From positions 8,181,538 through 8,245,537 of the forward strand of contig CM040742.1 in the NCBI GenBank assembly GCA_022829145.1: DNA of 64,000 nt, given 5' to 3'. The notes beneath the pieces were generated by a model. It was not told the DNA's origin, did no database searches, and was given only the letters and a program-made list of their open reading frames with translations. Positions 5,655 through 57,200 of this stretch are shown here, one piece after another. Both the position numbers and the translations under genes were made by a program. Source of the stretch: Albula goreensis (Eukaryota > Chordata > Actinopteri > Albuliformes > Albulidae). The stretch's first letter is position 1, and each line of letters starts with the position of its first letter.

Positions 5655-23836
<18,182 letters not shown>

Positions 23837-23970
23837 TATGTCAATACGCACTGTTTTACCATGGATCACTTTGATTATACAGTAAGTTAAAAATGACAAA
23901 AACAGATAGCTACGTCACTATCACACTGTACATTTCTAGCATACGCCCCCCTTCCACATTAGGTTCAACT

Positions 23971-24004
23971 TCTCGCGACGTTATGGCAATATCATACCGC
24001 GAGA
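23971..24004. promoter_or_regulatory. smarca5: TCTCGCGA-type promoter element upstream of smarca5
   Basis: The palindrome TCTCGCGA lies at 23971-23978 and a second half-copy CGCGAGA at 23998-24004, 135-170 nt upstream of the start codon. TCTCGCGA is a known promoter motif of broadly expressed TATA-less vertebrate genes, which fits smarca5. Its position makes a transcription start between about 23840 and 23960 likely; no start site is visible directly. Confidence 0.5.
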
Positions 24005-24452
24005 TTTCTAGAAGGCTCAGTCAGACTACTACAATAATATCAAATGCTATCCAGCTTACTCGTAGTTACAGCACTCATATGCTGTGGTGACAATGTCGGT
24101 AACCTAGCTGATACAAATAGTTTCTGAGAATCAGTTAATTTCTGGTCAAGGAGGAACACCTAACTTTACACATTTAGCAGACAAGCAAATACATGCAATT
24201 TCACAGCCAATACTTCTTCAATATTTTGTATTAATCTAACAAATCAAATGTATATGGGTTCAATTGATACTTTGCCATCAAGCTTAATAATTTACATGTA
24301 TTCTCTGTATTAAAGGAAAAATGCTCAAATTAATGTTTAAGTAATGTTATCATGATTTTTAATATCTTTTTTATAATTATATTTTGATGATAGTATGTGT
24401 ATCTTACGGAATATGTATCTTATGTTCTTCCTCGAAGAAATGTTTAAGATAC

Positions 24453-25470
24453 TTGAAGTTGTGTACAAAACGCGGATATGAAATTTGGATGGTTCCCAGA
24501 GCACATCTGTTGAGTGCGTGCGGAGCATAAGTGAAGAATATGCACCAGTCTGCAGAACCCATTACAAGAATTACACCAGGCATAAATTACACTAGTGGCC
24601 GCTAGATGTCAGAATACTACCACTTTTTGTTTACTGTCAATGGGCGCTTTTCAGCTGGAGCATCCAAACGTATGTACCACTGGCATCCTGACAGATTGAA
24701 ATGTGCCCGCATAAATTTAAACTATAGACGTTTAAATACTGCAGCTGCTTACTTTCATTTGCAACCAAATAAGGTATGTACATGTCAAAGCCACGATGTC
24801 TTCATATTTTCTCTCGAGCATATGTTGGGACCTTTCAGGTTACATTTGGATGCAGAATGTTAAAAAGAAAGATGTACAGACACAAAGTCAAACGAGTGAT
24901 GAGCAAAAATAAATAACTCAATAAACATCCAATCAGTCACATCTTTTATGTTTAATTACTCAGCAAACTGATCTGGGGTGAATTCAACAAGATTTCATTT
25001 TTTAACCATGTCACCCATACAGTGTCATACTTTCTGAAGCAGTTATGTTAAGTTACTGTGCTCATGGGTAAACACAGCCACTGTTCCACCAGCAACCTTT
25101 AGCATATAGACTCACTGGACTGAGAATTCATCTTCATCTCCAGAGAGGCAGACAGTAACTTCTATCTGCTTTACCCATTCTTGTCTGCCATCAAAGTTAA
25201 ACTTCCAGTATCACTTTCACCAAATGCATCAGATGGCAATGGTAGAAACCCAGGCGTAAACTGAATTATTTCTGTGAAATATTAAGTAGCGGTATAAATA
25301 AAAAAACTAATTATGTCATACCAAAATGTTTTGCATGAGAAAATAAATGGTCAGACCTAATCAATGGCTTTTTCTTTTTGTTGTGTTTTTGTTTTTATAT
25401 TCAGTTCCAGATCTCTGATTGAGAAAGGGTACTGGAGGGTGGCAGCATGAAGTTTAGGCTGTGCTCAGTG
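24453..25470. repeat. Dispersed/segmental duplicate, copy 1
   Basis: Closely similar to 45780-46430, same orientation. The first 450 bp (24453-24905) and a later block (25334-25470) match. The 24946-25333 piece has no counterpart in copy 2. The shared part includes an 85-codon frame (24606-24863) that stays open in both copies, beginning MSEYYHFLFTVNG. I do not recognise it as any protein family. Confidence 0.75.
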
Positions 25471-25981
25471 AGTCTGGTTGCACAAGCCACTACTTCACTT
25501 AACTCAAACAGCCAGAGCAGGGGAGCCACCAGTGCAGGGAACCAAATAAGACGTTACACCTCCCAATTAAAAAAGAGAACTGGGAAAACCATGCAAAGTC
25601 TCACTACAAACGTGAACATTTGGAGCCTGGCTGCCATGCTGATAGCCCCCCGCTCGTATTACTCACCTGTCGGCTGCCTGATAATTATGATTCTGGTGGC
25701 AGGTGATCACATACGAAGACAGATCTTATTTTTATTAAGAAACCAGAAGGAATTATGAAATCTTTTAATTTTATAACAGACATGTCAGATCATAATCTGA
25801 CCCTAATTGTAAGAAAATGTACTCAGCAGCAATTTTTATACAGACAGGAGGGTAAGCGTATGTAGTCGATTAGGAAAATAGTGTTTCTGCATGCAGCATG
25901 CTGTAGGGTGACACTTTTTCCAGTGCTTAGGTTGAAAGCTGAAAACTCCCCACTTAATCCATGCCCCCAAAATTCAATTGT

Positions 25982-26015
25982 CCAATCAGACAGCACAGTA
26001 TATTTATTTAAAAAA
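25982..26015 (+). promoter_or_regulatory. CCAAT box and TATA-like element of the SoxE-like gene
   Basis: A CCAATCA box at 25982-25988 is followed by an AT-rich TATA-like run (TATATTTATTTAAAA) at 25999-26013, about 70 nt before the predicted start codon at 26083. The spacing suits a transcription start near 26030-26040 and a roughly 50-nt 5' UTR, and supports exon 1 as a true first exon. Confidence 0.5.
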
Positions 26016-26082
26016 GCCGGCAAGTGTGAAATAGAAAGAGTTCAGCACTGAAAAAGTGAGCATCTGAAAGCCAGTCCTGAAA

Positions 26083-26249
26083 ATGTCTGCCAGAACGAAA
26101 GAATCTCGCAACAGACGACTGATGAATGTCAAAAAGCCATTAAATGCATTTTTCATATTTTCAAAAGAAGTGAGGAGGGAGCTGGCAGTGCAATATCCAA
26201 ATGTGCCTAGAGGCTCTTCGTTAAGCCGAGTGCTGGGCGAGCAATGGAG
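26083..26249 (+). CDS. SoxE-like exon 1: start and first half of HMG box
   Basis: ATG at 26083 follows an in-frame TGA at 26065, so the protein starts here in this reading. Residues 1-14 are basic and serine-rich, and the HMG box starts near residue 15. VKKPLNAF and [10 protein letters not shown] match Sox helix 1, and LSRVLGEQW matches helix 2. The exon ends TGG AG with a GTAGGT donor, between the Trp and next codon of the box, as in SoxE genes. Confidence 0.85.
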
Positions 26250-29200
26250 GTAGGTCACCGTCTTGCATCTGGTCAGGAAGTTATGTTACCGACTGAAACG
26301 TTATGACTATTTATGAACATAATTCATGGAGGGGGGAGTCGACCATCTAATCCTCAAGAGTAAAATACTTCATTTGAGTTTTTGAAATAATAGTGTAGTA
26401 ATTTAAATATTCATGAAAATCAGCAGTGCATCCCAGGGGCAGTTGGAGATCTGTGTGATATTAATAATAATTATGAATACTATGATAGCTGCTTTGGTCT
26501 TGTGGTTTGTAAGGAGGAGCCATTGCCTTTGAGAGGTTAAGGTTACAACCATCGCAAGAGAGGTCAGCTTTTTCAACTCTGCCCTTGATGTGTGTCTTTT
26601 ACTTTGGAATTCCGCCACCCCTCCTTGCACACAGTCAAATCCAAGACTGCAGGTGTCCCTTGTTCGTTTTTTTCTAATGAGGGAGTTATCTACTTTCCAC
26701 TCTCCTCTGTCCTCCTCCTTCTAAGTCCCAAAGGACAAGCACTACAAACTGAACCTCTATAAATGAACCTCTATTTGCTTCCGATTATCGTTTAAAAGTA
26801 CACTCACCATTGAAAGAATGTCATGCTTCATTTGTGCAGTCCTGAATAATCTAATGAATTCTTGATTGCAATTTGCTTTTGCCTTGATATTGTTTTCAAT
26901 TCAGGTAAGGTCAGCTTTAAATTGGAGATTCGGTGCACATGCGCTTTGTGATTGTCAATAGATTTTTATTCACAGTTGCAATAAACTTAATAATTGAACG
27001 GTCACAGTGTTCTACATCAGAGAATGCTTTTAATTATGATTTTCTGATTTGCACAGTGATTATTATAAGGGTGCAAGCCCACAAAGTTTTTTTGCTTTTT
27101 CTATTTTTATTATTTTTAGAGTTCAAGCCCACAAAGTGTTCATATTATAAGTAGTATAAATAAGCCATTTTAATGAAAAATGACCATGACTCATAGAAAT
27201 AATGGTAACTTTTTTTTGCTTTTGCAAACATTCCAGAAGGGGGGGCTATAGCAACCACTTAAGTATTCCAACTTTGAGAGCCCATAGCTTTTGAACCGTT
27301 TGATGTACAGAGACACAAAAGCAATGCTGGCAGATCTTTCTCTTCAAGATGAACTAAAAAGCTGCTTTGATCAAAAAGACACATCATTTTATATTTTCCA
27401 TCATTTTTAACTTTGTGAAAAACACAAAGAACCTTTTTAAAATATACCGTAAGTCCAATCGACATTAAACTTGCTATGCAACAAGTATGGGCTGGGGCCA
27501 AACAAGTCTGGGGAGGAAAAATTCCTTCATTAAAACTTCCACACAACGTGAAAATTAATCAGCACCATAAATAACAAATAGCAAAGCTTTGTGTACCAAA
27601 TTCGAACGTGATTGGATAAATAAAATGGTTGCCAAAAGTGATGGTTAGGGTGTTGAATAAGGCCACTGAATTTTAAAAACATTTAGCTAAAATGTTTCCC
27701 TCTTTGAAGTTGTGACTTTAGCAAGCATTTTCTTTTTCTTCACTTGTCGATGTATGTTTTGCGGCCTGAGCTTGCTGAGTGAGACCATAAAACAGCCTTT
27801 TGAGAAGGAAGCTCACTCCCTGCGGATGCAGTATAAAAAAGATCATCCCAAACAAAAGTACCAGCCCAGGCGAAGGAAACCCTTACAGACCCAGAGCTCC
27901 TTGGCTGCAAGGAGCAGCATTTTCTGGGAGACCATTCAGGTAACTTCAACTCTGTATCAAAATACCGTAGATACCATATTCTATTCTATGTATGCTATAA
28001 CATGCATTGGATGTGCCTACAGTGTATCCTTTTTAATGCATGAGTTTTAAACTTGGGGTCCATTCCATATCAAATTCCCTACACTGTCAAAATAAAAGTG
28101 TCTTGAAACACTGAACTAGTGTGGAACTTCAGGGCTCCCGGGAGAACGCTGTACCCTGTGAACATGATAGCACGCCATGGTAATTTAGGTGAAAACGACT
28201 TTGCTACCTGACCCCAATCTCCCTCCCCACCTCCCCCACAGGTATCCACCTGCGACAGAGAAACACAGGACACGGTAACAGATCGGCAAATCGTGTTTAA
28301 CATTTATACAGCATCATAAATCGAACACCCATGCAGAAATTAACCTCTGGTTTCTGTCTTCTCCCCCTTGATATGTGATACTGGCCAACCACAGGCATTC
28401 CTCAGGTAAGGCACTGGTCATCCACTGTAGCACACCACAGTCACGCCCACTCACACAGCAGCCCACCCACTACATGGTTCTCCTGCAGAACATTATGATT
28501 CGGCTGCTCCATGTCTGATCGCTATCACAGTCTTCCCCCGGTGACAGTTGCGTACTAGCCAGAAAACACTGCAAATCATCCTCCAGGCCCCATCTCATCA
28601 TGGAATCACTGTAGGTTGGGCATTTCTTTTGAATCTGGATGCATTAATTAAAATTAATTAATCTCGATCTGTGTGGGCCTCCCTATACCTAATGAATTGA
28701 CAGCCGCGGTAACCTCCTGCCATGCAAGTGTTTTTTGTTACCCCTGTGCTGTTGCCACATGAAATTATATCACAAACTTCCCTCTTGCATGGTTCAATTT
28801 ATATATATATATTTTTTGCACAATATTTTTTTATCATCACGAGAAAGGGGCAGTATACCCACAAAATAGAGGTACCTCATTTAAAAAACTACTACCTAGT
28901 GGTGGGGTGCCCTTCTTTTCGTGAGCCTCAGCCCCCCATAATGTTCTCTTTCTACAATTTACTTCCTCTTCCTTACCCATTCCCCTACCCCACCCCCCAG
29001 GAAAAAGCACCCTGACAAGTGCTTCCCACAATGCTTCAGCTCGAGCTCCTCCATCCTGCAGCAGTACAGCGCCTCCAGTTACCCTCGCTTCACCAGTGCT
29101 GCCCAGGAAGACTACTCTGACCACCAGGGCAAAACTGCTTCCAACTACACCCAAGTGGAGGGCAGCTCGGAGGGTCCTCACTCCAACCCCACCTACATGG

Positions 29201-29316
29201 CCCTCAGCAAAATGCCAATGTATACCCCTGTCACCAACCCCCTGGTCCCCCACATAGCCCAGTACAATGAAAGCCCTCTGTACTGGGATCAACAACCAGT
29301 GTACACTCAGCTCTAA
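26083..29316 (+). CDS. Divergent SoxE-type HMG-box transcription factor gene (3 supported exons)
   Basis: Exons 26083-26249, 27771-27939 and 29008-29316 encode about 214 residues. Sox proteins bend DNA through the HMG minor groove; SoxE members (Sox8, 9, 10) drive neural crest, cartilage and gonad programmes. Exons 1 and 2 join (phase 2) inside the HMG box at the intron position I recall for Sox9/Sox10. The box begins [11 protein letters not shown] and ends [15 protein letters not shown]. Exon 3 carries a SoxE-like tail with [20 protein letters not shown] and a final QPVYTQL. Intact introns argue against a retrocopy. Only 14 residues precede the box, so the SoxE dimerisation region is absent, and the linker to the tail is very short. 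The box has a one-residue loop insertion and unusual wedge residues. A poly(A) signal follows 80 nt after the stop. It could be a rapidly evolving functional paralogue or an early decaying one; no stop or frameshift is seen in the three exons. Confidence 0.82.
26250..27770 (+). other. Intron 1 of the SoxE-like gene
   Basis: A 1.5-kb AT-rich intron starting GTAGGT. Two near-identical short phrases (TTCAAGCCCACAAAGTGTT type) occur at 27075 and 27121, a small local duplication. No other gene or repeat recognised. Confidence 0.5.
27771..27939 (+). CDS. SoxE-like exon 2: second half of HMG box
   Basis: Acceptor CTGAG after a pyrimidine-rich tract, donor CAG|GTAACT. Encodes [20 protein letters not shown] then [16 protein letters not shown], which aligns residue for residue with helices 2-3 and the C-terminal nuclear localisation patch of Sox9/10. 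The following 20 residues end SSIFWETIQ, recalling the Sox9 AIFKALQ segment. Exon 2 of Sox9 is longer, so the post-box region is cut down. Confidence 0.9.
28242..28274 (+). CDS. Candidate extra 33-nt exon of the SoxE-like gene
   Basis: A strong pyrimidine tract and CACAG acceptor precede 33 nt that are open in the phase needed after exon 2 ([11 protein letters not shown]), followed by a GTAACA donor. No similarity to Sox proteins is seen, so this rests on splice signals and phase alone. Confidence 0.25.
28395..28405 (+). CDS. Candidate 11-nt micro-exon of the SoxE-like gene
   Basis: Eleven bases lie between an ACCACAG acceptor and a GTAAGG donor. Inserting them after exon 2 shifts the phase so that exon 3 could start at the strong CCCCCCAG acceptor (29001) and still read the Sox tail. 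This solves a real phase problem but could be chance. Confidence 0.25.
29008..29316 (+). CDS. SoxE-like exon 3: C-terminal transactivation tail
   Basis: Read from 29008 the exon encodes 102 residues and ends TAA at 29314-29316. [31 protein letters not shown] and [10 protein letters not shown] match in order the tail of Sox9/10 (YPPITRSQYDYTDHQ ... RPMYTPI ... HWEQPVYTQL). Only the last three Sox9 residues are missing. Direct joining to exon 2 (phase 0) needs acceptor AAAAAG at 29007 instead of the stronger CAG at 29000, which would put a TGA in frame. Confidence 0.85.
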   Translation, partial: HPDKCFPQCFSSSSSILQQYSASSYPRFTSAAQEDYSDHQGKTASNYTQVEGSSEGPHSNPTYMALSKMPMYTPVTNPLVPHIAQYNESPLYWDQQPVYTQL

Positions 29317-29904
29317 GTGTGAGTTAGAGCATACTCACACGTACACACATATACACAGACTCAAGCTCACACTCATACATGCACACAGATAAAAAATAAA
29401 CCATATACACAGACAGACAGACACACACACACATACACGTCAATTCTTCGATACACAAGATAATTATACAACTCTTCTGGTCCAGCATACTGTTCATTGG
29501 TCCAATCTGTTTAAGGACATGCTAAGAATTTCTCTGCTTTAATGACAGCAGTTATGATGGGTATGTTATGGTGACGATAACATTTAGCAGTAAACAACAG
29601 ATCATATTTTCTGGTGAAAACATACAAAAATCTCAATTTTGATTTTAAACAAAAAACAACTTGTATATCATTCTTAAAGACAGCAAATAAAAACGATTTT
29701 TGAAGTAATATTATTTTATCTTTGTTTTCTATTCTCTGTTGCCTGTCAGTTCCAACACAAAGATACTTGGCAATCCATAACAGAGAAAATTTAGTTTTTC
29801 TTGTTGTCCTTAAAATAAACATCTTTTCGTTGAAATATTTTGAATAAAGGATGAAGCATATGTCTTGTGTTTGGTTGTTGCACCAACACTGTGTCCACTG
29901 TGTT
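29317..29904. other. Spacer between the SoxE-like gene and the repeat array
   Basis: CA-rich 3' flank (29330-29450) then AT-rich sequence without recognisable genes or repeats up to the first array homology. Confidence 0.5.
29395..29400 (+). terminator. Poly(A) signal AATAAA of the SoxE-like gene
   Basis: AATAAA 79 nt after the stop codon within a CA-rich 3' UTR. Right strand and distance for the SoxE-like transcript. Confidence 0.5.
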
Positions 29905-31061
29905 ACACACCCATATCGCTTCAGTTTGACTACGTCACATGGACGTGGGGAGACTTGATAGGTAGCCCACATACAGGTAGTTGACCAATGGGGTTTGGCG
30001 TGGCAGAGTCATTCTTTACTTTTGAGGCAGAGTCTCCCTCAAAAGTAAAGAATGAAAAACTCCCAGTTCAAAACAAACCCTCTCCCTACAAGCAATCAGA
30101 CGCTACTGCACTGGGCAAAGCTTCCGAGTTTCCTCACTCAAATGGTACCGTGAACGAGACAAGAACGAGACACGTGAACGAGACAAGAAAGCCGCCCGTG
30201 TGCAGTTACTTAACAGAGTTAAGACAATATCAGACTTATAATTGTGCTATTTGATTGAGTTTGAATTGAAAATCAGAACTGACTGAACATCCCCAGTATC
30301 CAAAACAACTGTACAGGCCATCTGGAATACCTGCACTCTTACAACGTAAATGCAGACTATAACACTATGCTGTTAAGAAAACAAATACATTACAGCCTAA
30401 GGAAAATAGCTAGCTTGATGCTACTAACTACACAGAGTTGGCTAGCAATGGCTGGCAGTCATTAATGCCAGAACAACAGGAATATACCTAACACAAGGCA
30501 CTGCCATTCATTCAAACGAAAACATACAATGAACTGATTTTAAAAGGGCTTCATGGAGCTCCTTGACATTAACAGGCATGGGATTATTAACACTGCCGAA
30601 TTGAACATCAGAACTGGCTGAATATCCCCAGTATCCCAAACAACTGTACAGGCCATCTGGAATACCTGCACTCTTACAACGTAAATGCAGACTATAACAC
30701 TATGCTGTTAAGAAAACAAATACATTACAGCCTAAGGAAAATACCTAGCTTGATGCTACTAACTACACAGAGTTGGCTAGCAATGGCTGGCAGTCATTAA
30801 TGCCAGAACAACAGGAATATACCTAACACAAGGCACTGCCATTCATTCAAACGACAACATACAATGAACGTTCACACCTACCAACAAAGCTTCAACGACT
30901 GATCACATGAGATTAGCATGTCTGCTGCCATGCTTGTTTGAGTACATTGACAGTGATTTTAAAAGGAAGAAGCAATGGGAAAAGAGAGGGGGAGGGGGCA
31001 GTTGCGCTGAATGCTAGACCGGTAGCAGGGCTTTCCACCTTACTTCTCGCTAATGCTGAAT

Positions 31062-31079
31062 ATATATATATATATATAC
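31062..31079. repeat. TA microsatellite within array units
   Basis: A TA run followed by CACACAC. The same tract occurs at about 34738-34760, 38363-38380 and 40966-40990, with a different length in each unit. Confidence 0.7.
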
Positions 31080-31145
31080 ACACACAAAAAGGAATCGTTG
31101 CAGACAGCATACATTACAAAGGGTCAGAAAACATACTTTTCAAAT

Positions 31146-31326
31146 ATGAAGCAAGACCTATCCGGAGAACTGAATGAAATCGCATCTGAGTGGAAAGAGC
31201 GGTGTAAGTTTGTCAGGCTCTGTTGCGCTACACATTTCGGTTATTTAGTTCCTCATTCATTTCTTCTTTCCAGCACACCCATATCTCTTCAGTTTGACTA
31301 CGTCACATGGACGCGGGAGACTTGAT
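31146..31326 (+). other. Conserved short ORF with internal splice signals, array unit 1
   Basis: An ORF starting MKQDLSGELNEIASEWKE is intact in all four units (ATG near 31146, 34828, 38449, 41058). Just after this start lies GGT|GTAAGT (31204), and 70 nt on lies TTCTTCTTTCCAG (acceptor at 31273), i.e. a complete mini-intron layout. I recognise no protein family. It may be a captured gene fragment rather than a coding gene. Confidence 0.4.
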
Positions 31327-31409
31327 AGGTTGCCCACATACAGGTAGTTGACCAATGGGGTTTGGCGTGGCAGAGTCTTGGGGAAAAAATTCCACAACAT
31401 TCGTCAGCA

Positions 31410-31484
31410 GCCACATAGCTCAGCGGGTAAGGACGCTGGTGCTCTAAGCCACACCTCCTCGGCTCGAATCCCGCCCCGGCGACC
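31410..31484 (+). repeat. tRNA-like pol III promoter box, array unit 1
   Basis: A-box TAGCTCAGCGGG and B-box GGCTCGAATCC in correct order, about 40 bp apart, like a tRNA gene or SINE head. Acceptor and T stems do not pair well, so it is tRNA-derived, not a working tRNA gene. Confidence 0.65.
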
Positions 31485-34400
31485 AAAGCGGTGAACGAGA
31501 CAAGAAAGCCGCCCGTGGTGCAGTAGCGAAAAACTCCCAGTTCAACCCCCATCCCTCAAAAGTAAAGAATGAAAAACTCCCAGTTCAAAACAAACCCTCT
31601 CCCTACAAGCAACGAGACGCTACTGCACCGGGCAAAGCTTCCGAGTTTCCTCACTCAAATGGTACCGTGAACGAGACAAGAACGAGACACGTGAACAAGA
31701 CAAGAAAGCCGCCCGTGTGCAGTAAGCGAAAAACTCCCAGTTCAACCCCCTACCCCTCAAAAGTAAAGAATGAAAAACTCCCAGTTCAACACAAACCATC
31801 TCCCTACAAGCAACGAGACGCTACTGCACCGGGCAAAGCTTCCGAGTTTCCTCACTCAAATGGTACCGTGAACGAGACAAGAACGAGACAAGAAAGCCGC
31901 CCGTGTGCAGTAAGCGAAAAACTCCCAGTTCAACCCCCTACCCCTCAAAAGTAAAGAATGAAAAACTCCCAGTTCAACACAAACCATCTCCCTACAAGCA
32001 ACGAGACGCTACAAACTCCCAGTTCAACCCCTACCCCTCAAAAGTAAAGAATGAAAAACTCCCAGTTCAACACAAACCCTCTCCCTACAAGCAACGAGAC
32101 GCTACTGCACCGGGCAAAGCTTCCGAGTTTCCTCACTCAAATGGTACCGTGAACAAAAAGAAAGAAAAGCTGCAGGTAGATAAGATTAGCATGTCTGCTA
32201 CCGAACAATGTGAGTGCAGACTATAACACTATGCTGTTCAATCACAGTCTAAGGGAAAATAGCTAGCTTGATGCTACTAACCACACAGAGTTGGCTAGCA
32301 ATAGTTCTAGGCAATCATTAATGCTAGAACAACAGGAATATACATAACACAGGGCACTCATTCAAACGAAAACACACAATGAACTGACTTTGAAAGGGCT
32401 TCTTTGAAGATCAGAGAGCCCGTACTCTCTTACTGTAACAAGAGGCAACATGAACGAACTAGAGGGGCAGAATACTCATAATTCTTCACTTTGTAATACT
32501 TAACTTCAAACTAGTTTGGAGACAAGATGCATGGAATGTTACTTAGCAGAGTTAAGACAATGTCAGACTTATAATTGTGCTATTTGATTGAGTTTGAATT
32601 GAACATCAGAACTGGCTGAACATCCCCAGTATCCCAAACAACTGTACAGGCCATCTGGAATACCTGCACTCTTACAACGTAAATGCAGACTATAACACTA
32701 TGCTGTTAAGAAAACAAATACATTACAGCCTAAGGAAAATACCAGCTTGATGCTACTAACTACACAGAGTTGGCTAGCAATGGCTGGCAGTCATTAATGC
32801 CAGAACAACAGGAATATACCTAACACAAGGCACTGCCATTCATTTAAACGACAACATACAATGAACTGATTTTAAAAGGGCTTCGTGGAGCTCCTTGACA
32901 TTAACAGGCATGGGATTATTAACACCGGGCAAAGCTTCCGAGTTTCCTCACTCAAATGGTACCGTGAACGAGACACGTGAACGAGACAAGAAAGCCGCCC
33001 GTGTGCAGTAAGCGAAAAACTCCCAGTTCAACCCCTACCCCTCAAAAGTAAAAATGAAAAACTCCCAGTTCAACACAAACCTCTCCCTACAAGCAACGAG
33101 ACGCTACTGCACCGGGCAAAGCTTCCGAGTTTCCTCACTCAAATGGTACCGTGAACAAAAAGAAAGAAAACTGCAGGTAGATAAGATTAGCATGTCTGCT
33201 ACCGAACAATGTGAGTGCAGACTATAACACTATGCTGTTCAATCACAGTCTAAGGGAAAATAGCTAGCTTGATGCTACTAACCACACAGAGTTGGCTAGC
33301 AATAGTTCTAGGCAATCATTAATGCCAGAACAACAGGAATATACATAACACAGGGCACTCATTCAAACGAAAACACACAATGAACTGACTTTGAAAGGGC
33401 TTCTTTGAAGATCAGAGAGCCCGTACTCTGTTACTGTAACAAGAGGCAACATGAACAAAACAACTAGACAGGCAGAATACTCATAATTCTTCACTTTGTA
33501 ATACTTAACTTCAAACTAGTTTGGAGACAAGATGCATGGAATGTTACTTAGCAGAGTTAAGACAATGTCAGACTTATAATTGTGCTATTTGATTGAGTTT
33601 GAATTGAACATCAGAACTGGCTGAACATCCCCAGTATCCAAAACAACTGTACAGGCCATCTGGAATACCTGCACTCTTACAACGTAAATGCAGACTATAA
33701 CACTATGCTGTTAAGAAAACAAATACATTACAGCCTAAGGAAAATAGCCAGCTTGATGCTACTAACTACACAGAGTTGGCTAGCAATGGCTGGCAGTCAT
33801 TAATGCCAGAACAACAGGAATATACCTAACACAAGGCACTGCCATTCATTCAAACGACAACATACAATGAACTGATTTTAAAAGGGCTTCGTGGAGCTCC
33901 TTGACATTAACAGGCATAGGATTATTAACACTGCCGAATTGAACATCAGAACTGGCTGAACATCCCCAGTATCCCAAACAACTGTACAGGCCATCTGGAA
34001 TACCTGCACTCTTACAACGTAAATGCAGACTATAACACTATGCTGTTAAGAAAACAAATACATTACAGCCTAAGGAAAATACCTAGCTTGATGCTACTAA
34101 CTACACAGAGTTGGCTAGCAATGGCTGGCAGTCATTAATGCCAGAACAACAGGAATATACCTAACACAAGGCACTGCCATTCATTCAAACGAAAACATAC
34201 AATGAACTGATTTTAAAAGGGCTTCATGGAGCTCCTTGACATTAACAGGCATGGGATTATTAACACTGCCGAATTGAACATCAGAACTGGCTGAATATCC
34301 CCAGTATCCCAAACAACTGTACAGGCCATCTGGAATACCTGCACTCTTACAACGTAAATGCAGACTATAACACTATGCTGTTAAGAAAACAAATACATTA

Positions 34401-35091
34401 CAGCCTAAGGAAAATACCTAGCTTGATGCTACTAACTACACAGAGTTGGCTAGCAATGGCTGGCAGTCATTAATGCCAGAACAACAGGAATATACCTAAC
34501 ACAAGGCACTGCCATTCATTCAAACGACAACATACAATGAACGTTCACACCTACCAACAAAGCTTCAACGACTGATCACATGAGATTAGCATGTCTGCTG
34601 CCATGCTTGTTTGAGTACATTGACAGTGATTTTAAAAGGAAGAAGCAATGGGGAAAAGAGAGGGGGGAGGTGGGGCAGTTGCGCTGAATGCTAGACCGGT
34701 AGCAGGGCTTTCCACCTTACTTCTCGCTAATGCTGAATAATATATATATATATATATATACACACACAAAAAGGAATCGTTGCAGACAGCATACATTACA
34801 AAGGGTCAGAAAACATACTTTTCAAATATGAAGCAAGACCTATCCGGAGAACTGAATGAAATCGCATCTGAGTGGAAAGAGCGGTGTAAGTTTGTCAGGC
34901 TCTGTTGCGCTACACATTTCGGTTATTTAGTTCCTCATTCATTTCTTCTTTCCAGCACACCCATATCTCTTCAGTTTGACTACGTCACATGGACGCGGGA
35001 GACTTGATAGGTTGCCCACATACAGGTAGTTGACCAATGGGGTTTGGCGTGGCAGAGTCTTGGGGAAAAAATTCCACAACATTCGTCAGCA

Positions 35092-35167
35092 GCCACATAG
35101 CTCAGCGGGTAAGGACGCTGGTGCTCTAAGCCACACCTCCTCGGCTCGAATCCCGCCCCCGGCGACC
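35092..35167 (+). repeat. tRNA-like box, array unit 2
   Basis: Near-identical to the unit 1 copy, with one extra C before GGCGACC. A and B boxes intact. Confidence 0.65.
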
Positions 35168-38100
35168 AAAGCGGTGAACGAGACAAGAAAGCCGCCCGTG
35201 TGCAGTAAGCGAAAAACTCCCAGTTCAACCCCCCATCCCTCAAAAGTAAAGAATGAAAAACTCCCAGTTCAAAACAAACCCTCTCCCTACAAGCAACGAG
35301 ACGCTACTGCACCGGGCAAAGCTTCCGAGTTTCCTCACTCAAATGGTACCGTGAACGAGACAAGAACGAGACACGTGAACAAGACAAGAAAGCCGCCCGT
35401 GTGCAGTAAGCGAAAAACTCCCAGTTCAACCCCCTACCCCTCAAAAGTAAAGAATGAAAAACTCCCAGTTCAACACAAACCATCTCCCTACAAACAAGCA
35501 AGACGCTACTGCACCGGGCAAAGCTTCCGAGTTTCCTCACTCAAATGGTACCGTGAACGAGACAAGAACGAGACAAGAAAGCCGCCCGTGTGCAGTAAGC
35601 GAAAAACTCCCAGTTCAACCCCCTACCCCTCAAAAGTAAAGAATGAAAAACTCCCAGTTCAACACAAACCCTCTCCCTACAAAAGAAACTGCACCGGGCA
35701 AAAAGTTTCCTCACTCAAATGGTACCGTGAACAAAAAAGAAAGAAAAGCTGCAGGTAGATAAGATTAGCATGTCTGCTACCGAACAATGTGAGTGCAGAC
35801 TATAACACTATGCTGTTCAATCACAGTCTAAGGGAAAATAGCTAGCTTGATGCTACTAACCACACAGAGTTGGCTAGCAATAGTTCTAGGCAATCATTAA
35901 TGCAGAACAACAGGAATATACATAACACAGGGCACTCATTCAAACGAAAACACACAATGAACTGACTTTGAAAGGGCTTCTTTGAAGATCAGAGAGCCCG
36001 TACTCTCTTACTGTAACAAGAGGCAACATGAACGAACTAGAGGGGCAGAATACTCATAATTCTTCACTTTGTAATACTTAACTTCAAACTAGTTTGGAGA
36101 CAAGATGCATGGAATGTTACTTAGCAGAGTTAAGACAATGTCAGACTTATAATTGTGCTATTTGATTGAGTTTGAATTGAACATCAGAACTGGCTGAACA
36201 TCCCCAGTATCCCAAACAACTGTACAGGCCATCTGGAATACCTGCACTCTTACAACGTAAATGCAGACTATAACACTATGCTGTTAAGAAAACAAATACA
36301 TTACAGCCTAAGGAAAATACCTAGCTTGATGCTACTAACTACACAGAGTTGGCTAGCAATGGCTGGCAGTCATTAATGCCAGAACAACAGGAATATACCT
36401 AACACAAGGCACTGCCATTCATTTAAACGACAACATACAATGAACTGATTTTAAAAGGGCTTCGTGGAGCTCCTTGACATTAACAGGCATGGGATTATTA
36501 ACACCGGGCAAAGCTTCCGAGTTTCCTCACTCAAATGGTACCGTGAACGAGACACGTGAACGAGACAAGAAAGCCGCCCGTGTGCAGTAAGCGAAAAACT
36601 CCCAGTTCAACCCCCTACCCCTCAAAAGTAAAGAATGAAAAACTCCCAGTTCAACACAAACCCTCTCCCTACAAGCAACGAGACGCTACTGCACCGGGCA
36701 AAGCTTCCGAGTTTCCTCACTCAAATGGTACCGTGAACAAAAAGAAAGAAAAACTGCAGGTAGATAAGATTAGCATGTCTGCTACCGAACAATGTGAGTG
36801 CAGACTATAACACTATGCTGTTCAATCACAGTCTAAGGGAAAATAGCTAGCTTGATGCTACTAACCACACAGAGTTGGCTAGCAATAGTTCTAGGCAATC
36901 ATTAATGCCAGAACAACAGGAATATACATAACACAGGGCACTCATTCAAACGAAAACACACAATGAACTGACTTTGAAAGGGCTTCTTTGAAGATCAGAG
37001 AGCCCGTACTCTGTTACTGTAACAAGAGGCAACATGAACGAACTAGAGGGGCAGAATACTCATAATTCTTCACTTTGTAATACTTAACTTCAAACTAGTT
37101 TGGAGACAAGATGCATGGAATGTTACTTAGCAGAGTTAAGACAATGTCAGACTTATAATTGTGCTATTTGATTGAGTTTGAATTGAACATCAGAACTGGC
37201 TGAACATCCCCAGTATCCAAAACAACTGTACAGGCCATCTGGAATACCTGCACTCTTACAACGTAAATGCAGACTATAACACTATGCTGTTAAGAAAAAA
37301 ACAAATACATTACAGCCTAAGGAAAATAGCCAGCTTGATGCCACTAACTACACAGAACTGATTTAGCAATGGCTGGCAGTCATTAAATGCCAGAACAACT
37401 GGGAATATACCTAACAACAAGGCACTGCCATTCATTCAAACAAAACATACAATGAACTGATTTTAAAACAGGCTTCGTGGAGCTCCTTGACATTAACAAG
37501 GCATGAAAACATACAATGGATTTTATTAGCTCCTTGACATTAACAGGCATGATTATTAACACGAATTGAACATCAGAACTGGCTGAACATCCCCAGTATC
37601 CCAAACAACTGTACAGGCCATCTGGAATACCTGCACTCTTACAACGTAAATGCAGACTATAACACTATGCTGTTAAGAAAACAAATACATTACAGCCTAA
37701 GGAAAATACCAGCTTGATGCTACTAACTACACAGAGTTGGCTAGCAATGGCTGGCAGTCATTAATGCCAGAACAACAGGAATATACCTAACACAAGGCAC
37801 TGCCATTCATTCAAACGAAAACATACAATGAACTGATTTTAAAAGGGCTTCATGGAGCTCCTTGACATTAACAGGCATGGGATTATTAACACTGCCGAAT
37901 TGAACATCAGAACTGGCTGAATATCCCCAGTATCCCAAACAACTGTACAGGCCATCTGGAATACCTGCACTCTTACAACGTAAATGCAGACTATAACACT
38001 ATGCTGTTAAGAAAACAAATACATTACAGCCTAAGGAAAATACCTAGCTTGATGCTACTAACTACACAGAGTTGGCTAGCAATGGCTGGCAGTCATTAAT

Positions 38101-38713
38101 GCCAGAACAACAGGAATATACCTAACACAAGGCACTGCCATTCATTCAAACGACAACATACAATGAACGTTCACACCTACCAACAAAGCTTCAACGACTG
38201 ATCACATGAGATTAGCATGTCTGCTGCCATGCTTGTTTGAGTACATTGACAGTGATTTTAAAAGGAAGAAGCAATGGGGAAAAGAGAGGGGGGAGGTGGG
38301 GCAGTTGCGCTGAATGCTAGACCGGTAGCAGGGCTTTCCACCTTACTTCTCGCTAATGCTGAATATATATATATATATATACACACACAAAAAGGAATCG
38401 TTGCAGACAGCATACATTACAAAGGGTCAGAAAACATACTTTTCAAATATGAAGCAAGACCTATCCGGAGAACTGAATGAAATCGCATCTGAGTGGAAAG
38501 AGCGGTGTAAGTTTGTCAGGCTCTGTTGCGCTACACATTTCGGTTATTTAGTTCCTCATTCATTTCTTCTTTCCAGCACACCCATATCTCTTCAGTTTGA
38601 CTACGTCACATGGACGCGGGGAGACTTGATAGGTTGCCCACATACAGGTAGTTGACCAATGGGGTTTGGCGTGGCAGAGTCTTGGGGAAAAAATTCCACA
38701 ACATTCGTCAGCA

Positions 38714-38789
38714 GCCACATAGCTCAGCGGGTAAGGACGCTGGTGCTCTAAGCCACACCTCCTCGGCTCGAATCCCGCCCCCGGCGACC
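38714..38789 (+). repeat. tRNA-like box, array unit 3
   Basis: Same sequence as unit 2, A and B boxes intact. Confidence 0.65.
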
Positions 38790-40965
38790 AAAGCGGTGAA
38801 CGAGACAAGAAAGCCGCCCGTGTGCAGTAAGCGAAAAACTCCCAGTTCAACCCCCCATCCCTCAAAAGTAAAGAATGAAAAACTCCCAGTTCAAAACAAA
38901 CCCTCTCCCTACAAGCAACGAGACGCTACTGCACCGGGCAAAGCTTCCGAGTTTCCTCACTCAAATGGTACCGTGAACGAGACAAGAACGAGACACGTGA
39001 ACAAGACAAGAAAGCCGCCCGTGTGCAGTAAGCGAAAAACTCCCAGTTCAACCCCCTACCCCTCAAAAGTAAAGAATGAAAAACTCCCAGTTCAACACAA
39101 ACCATCTCCCTACAAGCAACGAGACGCTACTGCACCGGGCAAAGCTTCCGAGTTTCCTCACTCAAATGGTACCGTGAACGAGACAAGAACGAGACAAGAA
39201 AGCCGCCCGTGTGCAGTAAGCGAAAAACTCCCAGTTCAACCCCCTACCCCTCTCAAAAGTAAAGAATGAAAAACTCCCAGTTCAACACAAACCCTCTCCC
39301 TACAAGCAACGAGACGCTACTGCACCGGGCAAAGCTTCCGAGTTTCCTCACTCAAATGGTACCGTGAACAAAAAGAAAGAAAAGCTGCAGGTAGATAAGA
39401 TTAGCATGTCTGCTACCGAACAATGTGAGTGCAGACTATAACACTATGCTGTTCAATCACAGTCTAAGGGAAAATAGCTAGCTTGATGCTACTAACCACA
39501 CAGAGTTGGCTAGCAATAGTTCTAGGCAATCATTAATGCCAGAACAACAGGAATATACATAACACAGGGCACTCATTCAAACGAAAACACACAATGAACT
39601 GACTTTGAAAGGGCTTCTTTGAAGATCAGAGAGCCCGTACTCTGTTACTGTAACAAGAGGCAACATGAACGAACTAGAGGGGCAGAATACTCATAATTCT
39701 TCACTTTGTAATACTTAACTTCAAACTAGTTTGGAGACAAGATGCATGGAATGTTACTTAGCAGAGTTAAGACAATGTCAGACTTATAATTGTGCTATTT
39801 GATTGAGTTTGAATTGAACATCAGAACTGGCTGAACATCCCCAGTATCCAAAACAACTGTACAGGCCATCTGGAATACCTGCACTCTTACAACGTAAATG
39901 CAGACTATAACACTATGCTGTTAAGAAAACAAATACATTACAGCCTAAGGAAAATAGCCAGCTTGATGCTACTAACTACACAGAGTTGGCTAGCAATGGC
40001 TGGCAGTCATTAATGCCAGAACAACAGGAATATACCTAACACAAGGCACTGCCATTCATTCAAACGAAAACATACAATGAACTGATTTTAAAAGGGCTTC
40101 GTGGAGCTCCTTGACATTAACAGGCATGGGATTATTAACACTGCCGAATTGAACATCAGAACTGGCTGAACATCCCCAGTATCCAAAACAACTGTACAGG
40201 CCATCTGGAATACCTGCACTCTTACAACGTAAATGCAGACTATAACACTATGCTGTTAAGAAAACAAATACATTACAGCCTAAGGAAAATAGCCAGCTTG
40301 ATGCTACTAACTACACAGAGTTGGCTAGCAATGGCTGGCAGTCATTAATGCCAGAACAACAGGAATATACCTAACACAAGGCACTGCCATTCATTCTAAA
40401 CGAAAACATACAATGAACTGATTTTAAAAGGGCATTCATTCAAACGACAACATACAATGGAGCTCCTTGACATTAACAGGCATGGGATTATTAACACTGC
40501 CGAATTGAACATCAGAACTGGCTGAATATCCCCAGTATCCCAAACAACTGTACAGGCCATCTGGAATACCTGCACTTACAACGTAAATGCAGACTATAAC
40601 ACTATGCTGTTAAGAAAACAAATACATTACAGCCTAAGGAAAATACCTAGCTTGATGCTACTAACTACACAGAGTTGGCTAGCAATGGCTGGCAGTCATT
40701 AATGCCAGAACAACAGGAATATACCTAACACAAGGCACTGCCATTCATTCAAACGACAACATACAATGAACGTTCACACCTACCAACAAAGCTTCAACGA
40801 CTGATCACATGAGATTAGCATGTCTGCTGCCATGCTTGTTTGAGTACATTGACAGTGATTTTAAAAGGAAGAAGCAATGGGGAAAAGAGAGGGGGGAGGT
40901 GGGGCAGTTGCGCTGAATGCTAGACCGGTAGCAGGGCTTTCCACCTTACTTCTCGCTAATGCTGA

Positions 40966-40998
<33 letters not shown>

Positions 40999-41331
40999 AA
41001 AAGGAATCGTTGCAGACAGCATACATTACAAAGGGTCAGAAAACATACTTTTCAAATATGAAGCAAGACCTATCCGGAGAACTGAATGAAATCGCATCTG
41101 AGTGGAAAGAAAGGTGTAAGTTTGTCAGGCTCTGTTGCGCTACACATTTCGGTTATTTAGTTCCTCATTCATTTCTTCTTTCCAGCACACCCATATCTCT
41201 TCAGTTTGACTACGTCACATGGACGCGGGAGACTTGATAGGTTGCCCACATACAGGTAGTTGACCAATGGGGTTTGGCGTGGCAGAGTCTTGGGGAAAAA
41301 ATTCCACAACATTCGTCAGCAGCCACATAGC

Positions 41332-41397
41332 TCAGCGGGTAAGGACGCTGGTGCTCTGCCACACCACCTCGGCTCGAATCCCGCCCCCGGCGACCAA
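41332..41397 (+). repeat. tRNA-like box, array unit 4
   Basis: Same element with a small deletion between the boxes (GCTCTGCCACACC) and shared A and B boxes. Confidence 0.6.
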
Positions 41398-42456
41398 AGC
41401 GGTGAGACAACGAGACAAGAAAGCGCCCGTGTGCAGTAAGCGAAAAACTCCCAGTTCAACCCCCCATCCCTCAAAAGTAAAGAATGAAAAACTCCCAGTT
41501 CAAAACAAACCCTCTCCCTACAAGCAACGAGACGCTACTGCACCGGGCAAAGCTTCCGAGTTTCCTCACTCAAATGGTACCGTGAACGAGACAAGAACGA
41601 GACACGTGAACAAGACAAGAAAGCCGCCCGTGTGCAGTAAGCGAAAAACTCCCAGTTCAACCCCCACCCCTCAAAAGTAAAGAATGAAAAACTCCCAGTT
41701 CAACACAAACCATCTCCCTACAAGCAACGAGACGCTACTGCACCGGGCAAAGCTTCCGAGTTTCCTCACTCAAATGGTACCGTGAACGAGACAAGAACGA
41801 GACAAGAAAGCCGCCCGTGTGCAGTAAGCGAAAAACTCCCAGTTCAACCCCCTACCCCTCAAAAGTAAAGAATGAAAAACTCCCAGTTCAACACAAACCC
41901 TCTCCCTACAAGCAACGAGACGCTACTGCACCGGGCAAAGCTTCCGAGTTTCCTCACTCAAATGGTACCGTGAACAAAAAGAAAGAAAAGCTGCAGGTAG
42001 ATAAGATTAGCATGTCTGCTACCGAACAATGTGAGTGCAGACTATAACACTATGCTGTTCAATCACAGTCTAAGGGAAAATAGCTAGCTTGATGCTACTA
42101 ACCACACAGAGTTGGCTAGCAATAGTTCTAGGCAATCATTAATGCCAGAACAACAGGAATATACATAACACAGGGCACTCATTCAAACGAAAACACACAA
42201 TGAACTGACTTTGAAAGGGCTTCTTTGAAGATCAGAGAGCCCGTACTCTGTTACTGTAACAAGAGGCAACATGAACGAACTAGAGGGGCAGAATACTCAT
42301 AATTCTTCACTTTGTAATACTTAACTTCAAACTAGTTTGGAGACAAGATGCATGGAATGTTACTTAGCAGAGTTAAGACAATGTCAGACTTATAATTGTG
42401 CTATTTGATTGAGTTTGAATTGAAAATCAGAACTGGCTGAACATCCCCAGTATCCA

Positions 42457-43060
42457 AAAATGAGGCCTCTGAGCCCCCTGGATTTTCCTGGCCACAGTTT
42501 GTAAGTGCTTGCACCATTGTCAATAGTTCTGAGTATGTAGTTTGCCTTGGGTTATTTTTACAATGGTGCTGAGCTGCTTGTGTCTGATGTCCCCTTCACC
42601 ACTTTGGTCCTTTTCCTTCCATTCCCCCTACAAGTATAACACATACGAGGGCTCCTGCATTTACTCTGCATGTGCCCCAACTTTCCACAGTTGAAGCACT
42701 CCAATAGTTTTGGCCCTTTTCCTTCCATCCCCCCTCTCTTTGACCAGCACTGTTTTATGGAGTGGCCCGGTCTTTCAAATTAGAGCACACGAGGGGTCTT
42801 CTACATGCGCTTTGGATATGTCCTGATATTCCACAATTAAAGCATTTAATTGGGTGTTGGCCTTCTCTAGGTATAAAATCAATGAAATTGCTCATGTCTG
42901 CCATAAAGCGATAGACCACAGCCTCACTCATTAATTGTAACTTGGTTTCATGGTCAGGAAAGACAGCTGGATCCCCCGGACCCTGTAAGAATTCAACGGG
43001 CATGTAGCTGTTGCAGTGCTTGCACTTGGGTCACCTATGCCATCCCATGTAGGGAGCTGC
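42457..43060 (-). pseudogene. Decayed retroelement gag-like fragment with CCHC knuckles
   Basis: On the minus strand an open frame (42755-43003) includes the zinc-knuckle CFNCGISGHIQSAC (CX2CX4HX4C). A second knuckle, CFNCGKLGHMQSKC, lies further along near 42650-42690 in another frame. Tandem CCHC knuckles are typical of retroelement Gag nucleocapsid regions. A stop separates them and no protease, reverse transcriptase or LTR is seen, so this is a dead fragment. A host CCHC protein pseudogene is possible. Confidence 0.6.
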
Positions 43061-54137: not shown

Positions 54138-54209
54138 ATGAGTGCAGGGGACGTGGTATGTACCGGCTGGCTCATCAAATCTCCCCCCGAGAAGAAATTA
54201 AAGAGATAT
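54138..54209 (+). CDS. gab1: gab1 first coding exon (start of PH domain)
   Basis: GAB1 is a cytoplasmic docking adaptor that binds PIP3 through an N-terminal PH domain and recruits SHP2, PI3K and GRB2 downstream of Met, EGFR and other receptors. The exon encodes 24 residues, [20 protein letters not shown] then LKRY, followed by GTGAGT in phase 0. It fits the first beta strand of the GAB PH domain. GDVVCTGWL also resembles GAB2, but KKLKRY and the neighbouring smarca5 favour GAB1. The remaining exons lie beyond the window. Confidence 0.85.
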
Positions 54210-57200
54210 GTGAGTACGGAAACAGGGATGGGGGGGGGAGAGTGGGTAAAGAGGGAAATTTCTCATATGTCCTTGTGGGGCATTCTACCCAGGATGTAGT
54301 AGTAGTAGTATTCATAGTAGGAGTAGTATTAGTTCCTGCACCAAATGATGTGTACATGTCTCTGAACAGTGCTGTGTCATTTCTGTAGCACACTCAGCTT
54401 CTGTTTAGTAAGAATCATACAGGGAAGAGCTGAAATGTATGAATTTATTTTATCTATTATTTGGGTAAATGGTGTTTTGGTGTGCATACTGTGTCTTCTC
54501 TGTGCATCGGTGCAGCCCAGACCATCGAGGGGACATGTGAAGTGCACTAAGAGTGCTTGCTGCTGCTTTTGAACATCTGCATAGGACATCATCCAACAGT
54601 TGTTGCATTTTTAACATCTGATTGGTGTTTATTTAACACCTCTGATGTGTAAAGTGTACACGCTCAGAGTCTAGCATACGCTTGTTGTTACCCTGCGTTG
54701 ACGGTACACAGTGTACGCTGCATGGGAACCGCTGATGGACGGCAAGGTGCGTGGAGTACAATACAGCATGTTTATGCTGTTCGGAAGAGGAGGGAAAGGG
54801 GCCCGTCGAACTGGGATGTGTGCCTTAACTGTCAGCCTGTTATTCTGTGAAATTTGGGTGTGTGTTGCAAAACATAGGAAGCGCTATCACAGCCGAAGCA
54901 GTTGAGAAATGACCCGGCAGGCAGAAATGATCCACCGCAAGGATGACTGTTAGTGTTTCCTCTAGCACAGCACACCATGGAGGGGCGAAGGGGTGGTCAT
55001 CGGGGAAGTGGACATTCATTGTACTCTTAAGGGGACAGTATTTTTCCTTTTTGATGGGACATGGTTAGGAGGATGGGAATTGAGGGGTGGAGGGTGGTTT
55101 GGATGGGGGGGGAGGTGGGGGTGCAAAGGGGCAGCTTATTGTGCAAGAGGATACAGACAGCAGGAAGGGCATGGCTTTTGCCCCTTTGGCCCTATATAAG
55201 AATAAAAAGTGACCATGTGAATGCTGGAAGCACCGCCTCCCACCCTCCCATTAGGAAACACTGGTCAGCAACAAGGAGTGGCTACATCCATAGGTCAAAT
55301 TCAGCACTGCTGCAGGCTCTTGTGTTACACTTCAGGGCCACTTCGGAATGATCTGGCCTGTTGTTGATGTGTGCTCCTCTCTTCATATATTCATGGTAGG
55401 CTTAAGACTTGCGGCATATATGGTGACATGGTCACATTCAAATAAAAAATATGAAGAACAATAACAGTTTTATTTTAATTTCATAACATGCTGAACACAC
55501 TAATAGCACTGAGATATTCATGTTTATAGTAAATGTGTCATTCATTTTGCTCATAGGGATATACATTTTTCCACATTTTAAAAATTATTACTATACATAA
55601 GAGTATGCCTTTGTATACACAAAAACACGTGTCACTGCTTGGTCAGTGATGGGAAGTGTGCATTCTTAAGGATTTTGTAAACCTGTAAGGCTTGAAGCTT
55701 TGTAAAATTGTCAATTCAACAAATAATACAGCATTTTAACATCATATTTGAAAATTATTTCTGACACTCTGCACAAGGTGGTGTAATATTTCCTCACTAG
55801 TTTGTTGGAAATGATTAAATGTATAAATATTTGCTCACAAGCACAACATCAGTTCTTTGTTAATTTTATTATAGAAGCACAGACTTTGGAACTATTCATT
55901 TTTGAAAATGTTTTACTTTCTCTTCTGGGTATTACTAGCTACCCAAAGAGCCTCTAGACAAATTTAGAATTATAATCTGGCCTTGTGGTATCTTTTTATT
56001 TTAACATAATAAAACTGTATTCACATTGGCCACAGTGACTATATGGTAATGTAATGGCGATAAGCAAACTTAATTATTGTTAATTCTCATTAAAATCAAT
56101 GCTGGTGTTTGATTTGACTGTGTTTTACTGAGGGTTGTGTATTCCCCACTAAAACACATTAAAATGAACAATTATTTAAACTTGAACTCAGTTTTGTTTA
56201 TATTGAATGATTTGTACTGTAGACATTATGAGATGTTCTAAAGACACTAGCAGAGACATTTGGTAAATTGAATAGGATTTTGGCATTCCATAACTGCAGT
56301 CAGTCTGTCATGCCCAGTCACAGACAGCTCACCAGCCCATGTGCCATGCCAAAGAGTCCATCCACACACCAGAGCAGGCCCATTACAGCATGAATTACCC
56401 AGCAGCTGAGCGTGGCATTTAAACTCTTATCTCGAAATGTTTGCCTGCAAACTGATCTGCAGGTTCATTTTCCAATGAAATGAAGTTGGAAGTTCCTCAG
56501 AATCTGCATATATTATCAGATTGCACTAGCTACCAGTTTGTAACTGCCTCTAATGCAAATATTTACTATTTAGTTCCTTTTTATTTTGTGTTCTAGAGAA
56601 TGTATATGGGCTCTGAATTTTAACAATCAGTCTCAAAATGTACAGATATAGGAATGGACTTAAGTAGTACAACCTTTAAATACATAAAGGTAGTTTATGC
56701 TACAATTTGTTTTTGACCGATGAAAAGGTGACACCCTTATCTGTCCTGTTTGGGTACTACTGAGAATGCCTGTCTGTTTGGCTTCTGTATCTGCCTCATG
56801 CTGCTGAATTCCCCATATTATGACTCCTCACATAGTTTGGCCTCCTTCCACACTTCAGGGGTCAGGGGTCAAAACTAGCCACAGCTGTGAGTCACTCCTG
56901 CTACCTCACCTTTACCCATAGTTCAAGGCACACGTTCACCGGCCGCGCCATTATGGACTGCTCATCTGCCTGTCCCACCCTGTGTGTAGGTGTCTGTGGG
57001 CATTCCCGTGTTGTAAAAGAAAACAGCAATGTTGAGAAAGACACATTTAAGCTGTGACTCATACTTGTCTCTGAGGTCCCCTTTTGTTCTTTCAAAATGG
57101 CATGTCTAAGAATATTAAGTCTGTGAATGTCCAGAGTTCGATAGATAACCCTGAAGGCTTTTTGTTTTCATATGATGGTTGCAGTGCTCTTTATCTGACT

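Follow-up and report, generated by a model that had tools for sequence, protein, structure and literature searches.

Between a smarca5-type gene on the minus strand and a gab1-type gene on the plus strand, chromosome C2 of the 932-Mb Albula goreensis assembly carries a three-exon Sox gene, read on the plus strand at 26083-29316 of a 64,000-nucleotide stretch (C2:8181538-8245537, hereafter the window, whose positions are used unless a chromosome is named; the gene lies at C2:8.21 Mb). A first-pass annotation, made from the letters of the window alone, had suggested here an extra SoxE paralogue at an unexpected place, with three exons on one strand, an HMG box split by an intron and a SoxE-type tail ending in QPVYTQL. 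These points stand, and the gene is the seventh SoxE-derived gene besides the six canonical ones on C19 and C22. Sequence comparison indicates that it is real, derived from Sox9, architecturally new and long under selection, with a putative present function. We give a probability of roughly 0.58 to its being an old, fast-evolving, monomeric derivative of Sox9, a third Sox9 paralogue that combines an HMG box with the C-terminal transactivation domain (TAC).

The HMG box of the spliced query matches Pfam PF00505 (E=3.8e-17) at 62.9 bits, above the family cut-off of 25.4, and its best relative in the PDB, leaving aside a two-box SRY/HMGB1 fusion, is SOX9 (4euw, 5.7e-23). It is 57% identical to the box of sox9, with one residue inserted and several motif changes: 28 of the 65 compared codons code for another amino acid, whereas the two sox9 copies of the same genome, on C19 and C22, differ in 0 of 65 and are thus 100% identical over them. 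An asparagine, the tryptophan of LGxxW and the YQPRRRK motif are kept, and FF and KQPFEKEA resemble box B of HMGB1 in the alignment to the PDB match. The intron inside the box sits at the very base at which it interrupts all six SoxE genes of this genome, whose first exons end TGGAG/GT (TGGCG/GT in the two sox8), and a second intron follows the box, also as in SoxE. A retrocopy, already judged unlikely in the first-pass annotation, is ruled out by the position of both introns.

In a protein search within this genome, the tail matches the two sox9 with E-values of 1.8e-19 and 1.8e-17. Its TAC is 54-57% identical to the sox9 copies (54.5% to residues 386-484 of the 487-residue C19 model), and the DNA of exon 3 is 68.7% identical to sox9 C19 over 431 columns, 3' flank included, and 69.4% to sox9 C22 over 301. 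It ends as do both sox9 copies, which run on with SRP; these final three residues have been removed by a TAA. Two other domains of Sox9 are absent (domain names as in PMC9482574). A tblastn search with the dimerization domain (DIM) of sox9 over 16001-30500 gave a best E of 0.2, a match to exon 3, and an in-frame stop at 26065-26067, just 5' of the ATG, means that exon 1 therefore encodes no such domain. The middle transactivation domain (TAM/K2) of sox9 likewise gave a best E of 0.30 over the same interval, again in exon 3, and nothing window-wide. Because DIM and TAM were both looked for and are absent, the predicted protein does not have the full SoxE architecture; stretches for DIM, HMG, TAM and TAC are present in each of the six canonical genes. 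The designation as a SoxE paralogue therefore holds for descent, where Sox9 is the nearer name, and not for architecture, in which the gene is an outlier without the DIM that marks SoxE.

Descent from Sox9 is carried by the codon DNA. In a tree of 444 aligned columns covering the seven SoxE genes of this genome, the window gene joins the two sox9 with support of 100/99, and grouping with sox10 or sox8 is rejected by the approximately unbiased (AU) test (p 0.00515 and 0.0022), which rules out an origin from Sox8 or Sox10. Codon positions 1 and 2 alone give 98/99 for the sox9 grouping, and the alternatives are again rejected, sox10 at p 0.03 and sox8 at p 0.00025, whereas third positions alone leave the placement unresolved. 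Protein trees agree more weakly, with 79/82 for TAC and 79/83 for both parts combined (both unstarred), and an HMG-only protein tree, which includes four of the 11 further Sox loci tried (the pattern missed the remaining ones), sets the gene on the SoxE side of its branch at 94/92, also unstarred. Its branch is by far the longest (0.61 in DNA, 1.33 in HMG protein), and its exact place in the tree is unsure for that reason. From these trees and from the tail, we conclude that the window gene is a third Sox9 paralogue by descent.

The age of this paralogue and its source copy can be told less closely. Where the two sox9 copies differ, the window gene matches C19 22 times, C22 23 times and neither 12 times, and this even match suggests a split about as old as that between the two copies, with a later origin from either not rejected. 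One tree groups the window gene with sox9 C22 at 82/83, and alternative resolutions are not rejected. The last 16 bases of exon 2 and the start of the intron (CTGGGAGACCATTCAG/GTAACTTC) resemble those of sox9 C19 (CTGGGGACCACTCAG/GTAACTTC) but in a shifted frame; together with a CA-rich 3' flank shared with C19, the GTAACTTC intron start points faintly to C19 as the source, CA repeats being weak evidence. The gene apparently does not lie where a genome-duplication copy of the sox9a/sox9b type on the Sox9 syntenic blocks would: C19 and C22 carry the full sox9 copies, and the window gene is on C2 beside smarca5 and gab1.

Both modules carry the mark of past purifying selection. Where the two sox9 copies agree, the window gene has changed at 25/63, 12/65 and 23/42 sites of codon positions 1, 2 and 3 across the HMG box, and at 24/73, 13/75 and 21/63 across TAC. 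For each of four cases (two parts by two ancestors) we ran 2000 neutral simulations with an equal number of differences; like the codon counts, they omit 11 central codons of the HMG box. In no case did any of the 2000 simulations attain the observed BLOSUM score. HMG identity was 37 against simulated maxima of 31 and 32, with 12 position-2 changes against minima of 15; tail identity was 47 against a maximum of 45 for one ancestor. The chance of encountering zero stop codons under neutrality was 0.094 and 0.078 for the HMG box and 0.075 and 0.096 for the tail. A purpose-written codon model, covering five of the seven SoxE genes with the two sox8 left out, rejects omega=1 on the branch of the window gene, with twice the log-likelihood difference (2dlnL) at 9.40 for the HMG box and 6.60 for TAC, and at 8.57, 18.94 and 19.86 for both parts under three topologies. 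These results argue that, over a large part of its past, the gene encoded a protein under selection, and that both modules were therefore translated in these frames.

Several observations weigh against our reading. The RPMNAFMVW motif of the HMG box has become KPLNAFFIF in the window gene, a W to F change included. The phylogeny of box and tail that had been proposed as a check sets codon DNA and TAC with Sox9, but the box alone does not single Sox9 out: sox8 C22 is the most similar to it (57% identity over 76 columns), and by path the two sox8 are nearest. The selection signal of TAC is weaker than that of the HMG box, since tail identity with sox9 C22 as ancestor (44) falls inside the simulated range (maximum 45), as do position-2 changes of the tail for both ancestors (15 and 18, minima 14). 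Synonymous change is saturated, with the branch length at its bound in two of five free fits, and the omega values are unusable for that reason. The selection tests, moreover, average over the whole branch; they speak of a coding past and not of the present, and are compatible with recent death.

The splice sites, whose strengths we judged by eye against the consensus, add to this side. The end of exon 2 (CAG/GTAACT) and the acceptor at 29000 (CAG/GAAAAAG) join out of frame, giving Glu-Lys-Ala-Pro-stop and a protein of 116 amino acids; because these best-looking sites put HMG box and tail in different frames, the gene may not be intact. The acceptor of intron 1 is GAG, where all 12 acceptors of the six SoxE genes have C or T. 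The length of about 214 residues given in the first-pass annotation is obtained if the AG at 29007, seven bases past 29000, is used, and all 214 codons are then open; a poor donor at 27954 joined to the acceptor at 29000 is also in frame. Two of the six canonical SoxE genes contain frame-breaking single-base homopolymer indels, in exon 2 of sox9 C22 (CCC, in frame only with a fourth C) and in exon 2 of sox8 C22 (seven As), which are probably assembly errors given how conserved those genes are. The GAAAAAG run after the 29000 acceptor is a homopolymer of the same kind, and the break between exons 2 and 3 therefore need not be real. The junction can still be read in three ways: 29007 is used in frame, the assembly is in error, or the break is real.

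A real break would suit the main rival explanation, in which an old Sox9 paralogue, functional for most of its life, was lost recently in this species, the frame break and the GAG acceptor being its first decay. The stop four codons beyond the out-of-frame junction, the departure of the GAG from all 12 SoxE acceptors and the loss of the final three residues to the TAA are what such a relic would show. Against recent loss stand the 214 open codons of the long form, the past selection on both modules, the in-frame AG seven bases further on and the homopolymer indels in two of six canonical genes of the same assembly; we regard it as unlikely, while treating it as a serious contender.

If the acceptor at 29000 is used in a living gene, its product would be an HMG box followed by EKAP, a 116-residue regulator that might occupy Sox sites without activating them and so dampen sox9a/b, the long form being minor or absent. 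This follows from the best-looking splice sites; the second half of the box and PRRRK are conserved, and a stop in the last exon is not expected to provoke nonsense-mediated decay. We nevertheless think it improbable, because an untranslated exon would show no selection, and the tail was selected in its own frame (2dlnL 6.60, with a BLOSUM score above all 2000 simulations for both ancestors).

The long branch (0.61 and 1.33) could also be that of a fourth SoxE gene surviving from the vertebrate genome duplications and predating the split of Sox8, Sox9 and Sox10, in an old neighbourhood, as the linkage of smarca-type and gab-type genes on C23 as well would imply. The tail motif is common to the two sox9 copies only, however, the Sox9 clade is found at 100/99 with sox8 and sox10 rejected, and 0 of 79 HMG matches in the own-genome family search lie near the C23 pair, which makes such an ancient survivor very unlikely. 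That a SoxF or Sox32-like gene has come by chance to a Sox9-like tail is scarcely credible: RPLNAF and a fast branch are found in Sox32 too, and the HMG-only test gives no firm rejection (p 0.052 with sox32, 0.072 with the four SoxF), but KYQPRRRK is as in six of six SoxE genes against KYRPRR in four SoxF, the tail matches Sox9 at E=1.8e-19 and the second intron follows the box as in SoxE; this origin is disfavoured.

Under the preferred reading of a third, two-module Sox9 paralogue, a sox9 gene would have been duplicated at the DNA level, introns included, transposed to the interval between smarca5 and gab1, and cut down to the HMG box, PRRRK included, and TAC. Splicing at the 29007 AG, or a miscounted run of As at 29002-29006, would join these modules in frame. 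Judging from its anatomy, the protein may bind single Sox sites as a monomer through its altered HMG box and recruit co-activators through the retained tail. As set out in PMC9482574, DIM mediates the dimerization of SOX9 and is needed on cartilage genes, but in Sertoli cells SOX9 acts as a monomer; its TAC binds MED12, CBP/p300, TIP60 and WWP2, and TAM synergizes with TAC. Because it would be without the surface by which SOX9 has to pair on cartilage genes, the HMG+TAC protein is predicted to act, with weaker activation, where SOX9 works as a monomer, or to compete with sox9a/b at shared sites. A more specific proposal, by analogy, is that this dimerization-free derivative was confined to monomer sites and recruited to the gonad or to another tissue where SOX9 is monomeric, possibly as an SRY-like switch upstream of, or acting against, sox9a/b; we consider it a long shot.

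Among known genes, Sox9 (sox9a/sox9b) is the closest in the placement of both introns, in KYQPRRRK and in a C-terminal tail with PMYTP, and the highest DNA identity, 65% over 438 columns, is to sox9 C22. The window gene departs from Sox9 in its length (214 or 116 residues against 487), in the loss of DIM, TAM/K2 and the final SRP, in its diverged HMG box, and in its chromosome and neighbours. Sox8 and Sox10 share the SoxE exon plan and are each 55% identical in the HMG box, but their tails are only 34% (sox8 C19) and 45% (sox10 C19) identical and their grouping with the gene is rejected on codon DNA. As a functional analogue, SRY is comparable: it too evolves fast, is reduced and centred on its HMG box, and comes from a developmental Sox gene. 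That gene is SOX3, and SRY is sex-linked, whereas the window gene is of Sox9 origin and retains TAC. Sox32 (casanova) is likewise a fast-evolving extra Sox gene with RPLNAF, but is of SoxF type and lies about 24 kb from sox17 on C16 of this genome.

According to a study of medaka in which stickleback, medaka and zebrafish were compared, genome scanning gave no sox9-like gene beyond sox9a/sox9b (PMC3257256). A survey of eleven teleost genomes attributes all sox duplicates except sox17 to genome duplication (PMC5524304), a tilapia study counts six SoxE genes (PMC4813134), and a Sox9 study drawing on 657 species recognizes three clades, Sox9, Sox9a and Sox9b (PMC4873142); a further review was also consulted (PMC8066042). 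In the open-licence papers searched, we found no description of a third teleost Sox9 or of any Sox gene in the smarca5-gab1 interval, and the gene may be present in sequence databases under a 'Sox-9-like' label. If our reading is true, a third Sox9 occupies a non-Sox9 locus, contrary to the view in print of only sox9a and sox9b in teleosts; the gene would then serve as a natural experiment on which Sox9 functions depend on dimers, and would mark another route, SRY being the first, from a Sox gene of the testis pathway to a reduced derivative.

Table. Features of the window gene and its neighbours (window positions), and the canonical SoxE genes of the genome (chromosome positions)
Feature	Position	Strand	Remarks
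Candidate core promoter	25982..26006	+	CCAAT box at 25982, TATATTTA at 25999; pattern scan; 75-100 bases 5' of the ATG; weak, AT-rich sequence
Coding exon 1	26083..26249	+	ATG, 14-residue basic leader, first half of HMG box; GT donor at 26250
Intron 1	26250..27770	+	HMG-box position same as in six SoxE genes; acceptor GAG
Coding exon 2	27771..27939	+	Second half of HMG box to YQPRRRK (ends 27879), then short linker; CAG/GTAACT
Intron 2	27940..29007	+	Acceptor AG 29000 after long pyrimidine tract (out of frame with tail); second AG 29007 in frame
Coding exon 3	29008..29316	+	Sox9-type TAC, end QPVYTQL; includes TAA stop at 29314-29316
First AATAAA 3' of stop	29395..29400	+	Pattern scan; others at 29686, 29814, 29843
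Neighbour, part of ISWI-type remodeller taken as smarca5	11412..16492	-	Helicase C-terminal and SNF2 domains; best PDB match 6ne3 (SMARCA-family)
Neighbour taken as gab1, first coding exon	54138..54212	+	Short exon; no Pfam match
Two sox9	C19:1.59 Mb, C22:15.16 Mb
Two sox8	C19:2.03 Mb, C22:15.63 Mb
Two sox10	C19:9.51 Mb, C22:19.08 Mb

Candidates for the promoter and poly(A) signal that the first-pass annotation gave the gene are a CCAAT box and TATATTTA 5' of the ATG, and four AATAAA in the 684 bases 3' of the stop, where about 0.9 AATAAA is expected from base composition; these signals lend the gene weak support. For the neighbours, we take 6ne3 to be SMARCA5, and smarca5 is presumed rather than smarca1; the name gab1 is presumed from the GAB1 N-terminus. 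At C23:13.07-13.14 Mb, 67 kb separate a smarca-type exon (88% identical) from a gab-type exon (74%), like the smarca5/gab1 linkage in the window; the two are perhaps smarca1 and gab3, paired since an ancient genome duplication. On C6, 40 kb beside a gab1-like exon showed no Sox remnant (the best tblastn match had E=0.022). Directly 3' of the gene, window positions 30029-42577 hold a nested direct-repeat array with spacings near 190-200, 335, 1000 and 2600-3700 bases; some copies are 98-100% identical, and the array looks like a recent expansion. Beyond it, an open frame on the minus strand (42755-43030) has a CCHC zinc knuckle (Pfam E=1.3e-4) and is perhaps a retroelement remnant.

The six full SoxE genes were found by protein search and by reading of their loci, and their sox8, sox9 and sox10 names were assigned by reading their sequences; SoxF genes, the sox17 and sox32 on C16 among them, are present too. 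The pairing of sox8, sox9 and sox10 and the sox32-like gene point to a teleost. Own-genome family and protein searches showed no second copy of the window gene among the best candidates, which alone were scored, and the 102-residue tail had no relative in bacterial genomes or viral contigs, as expected. On the minus strand of C1 (1319500-1323500) lies half an HMG box, SoxD-like by eye; the long simple repeat after it reads without a stop, as HTHTH-like protein, whichever of the strand's three frames is taken.

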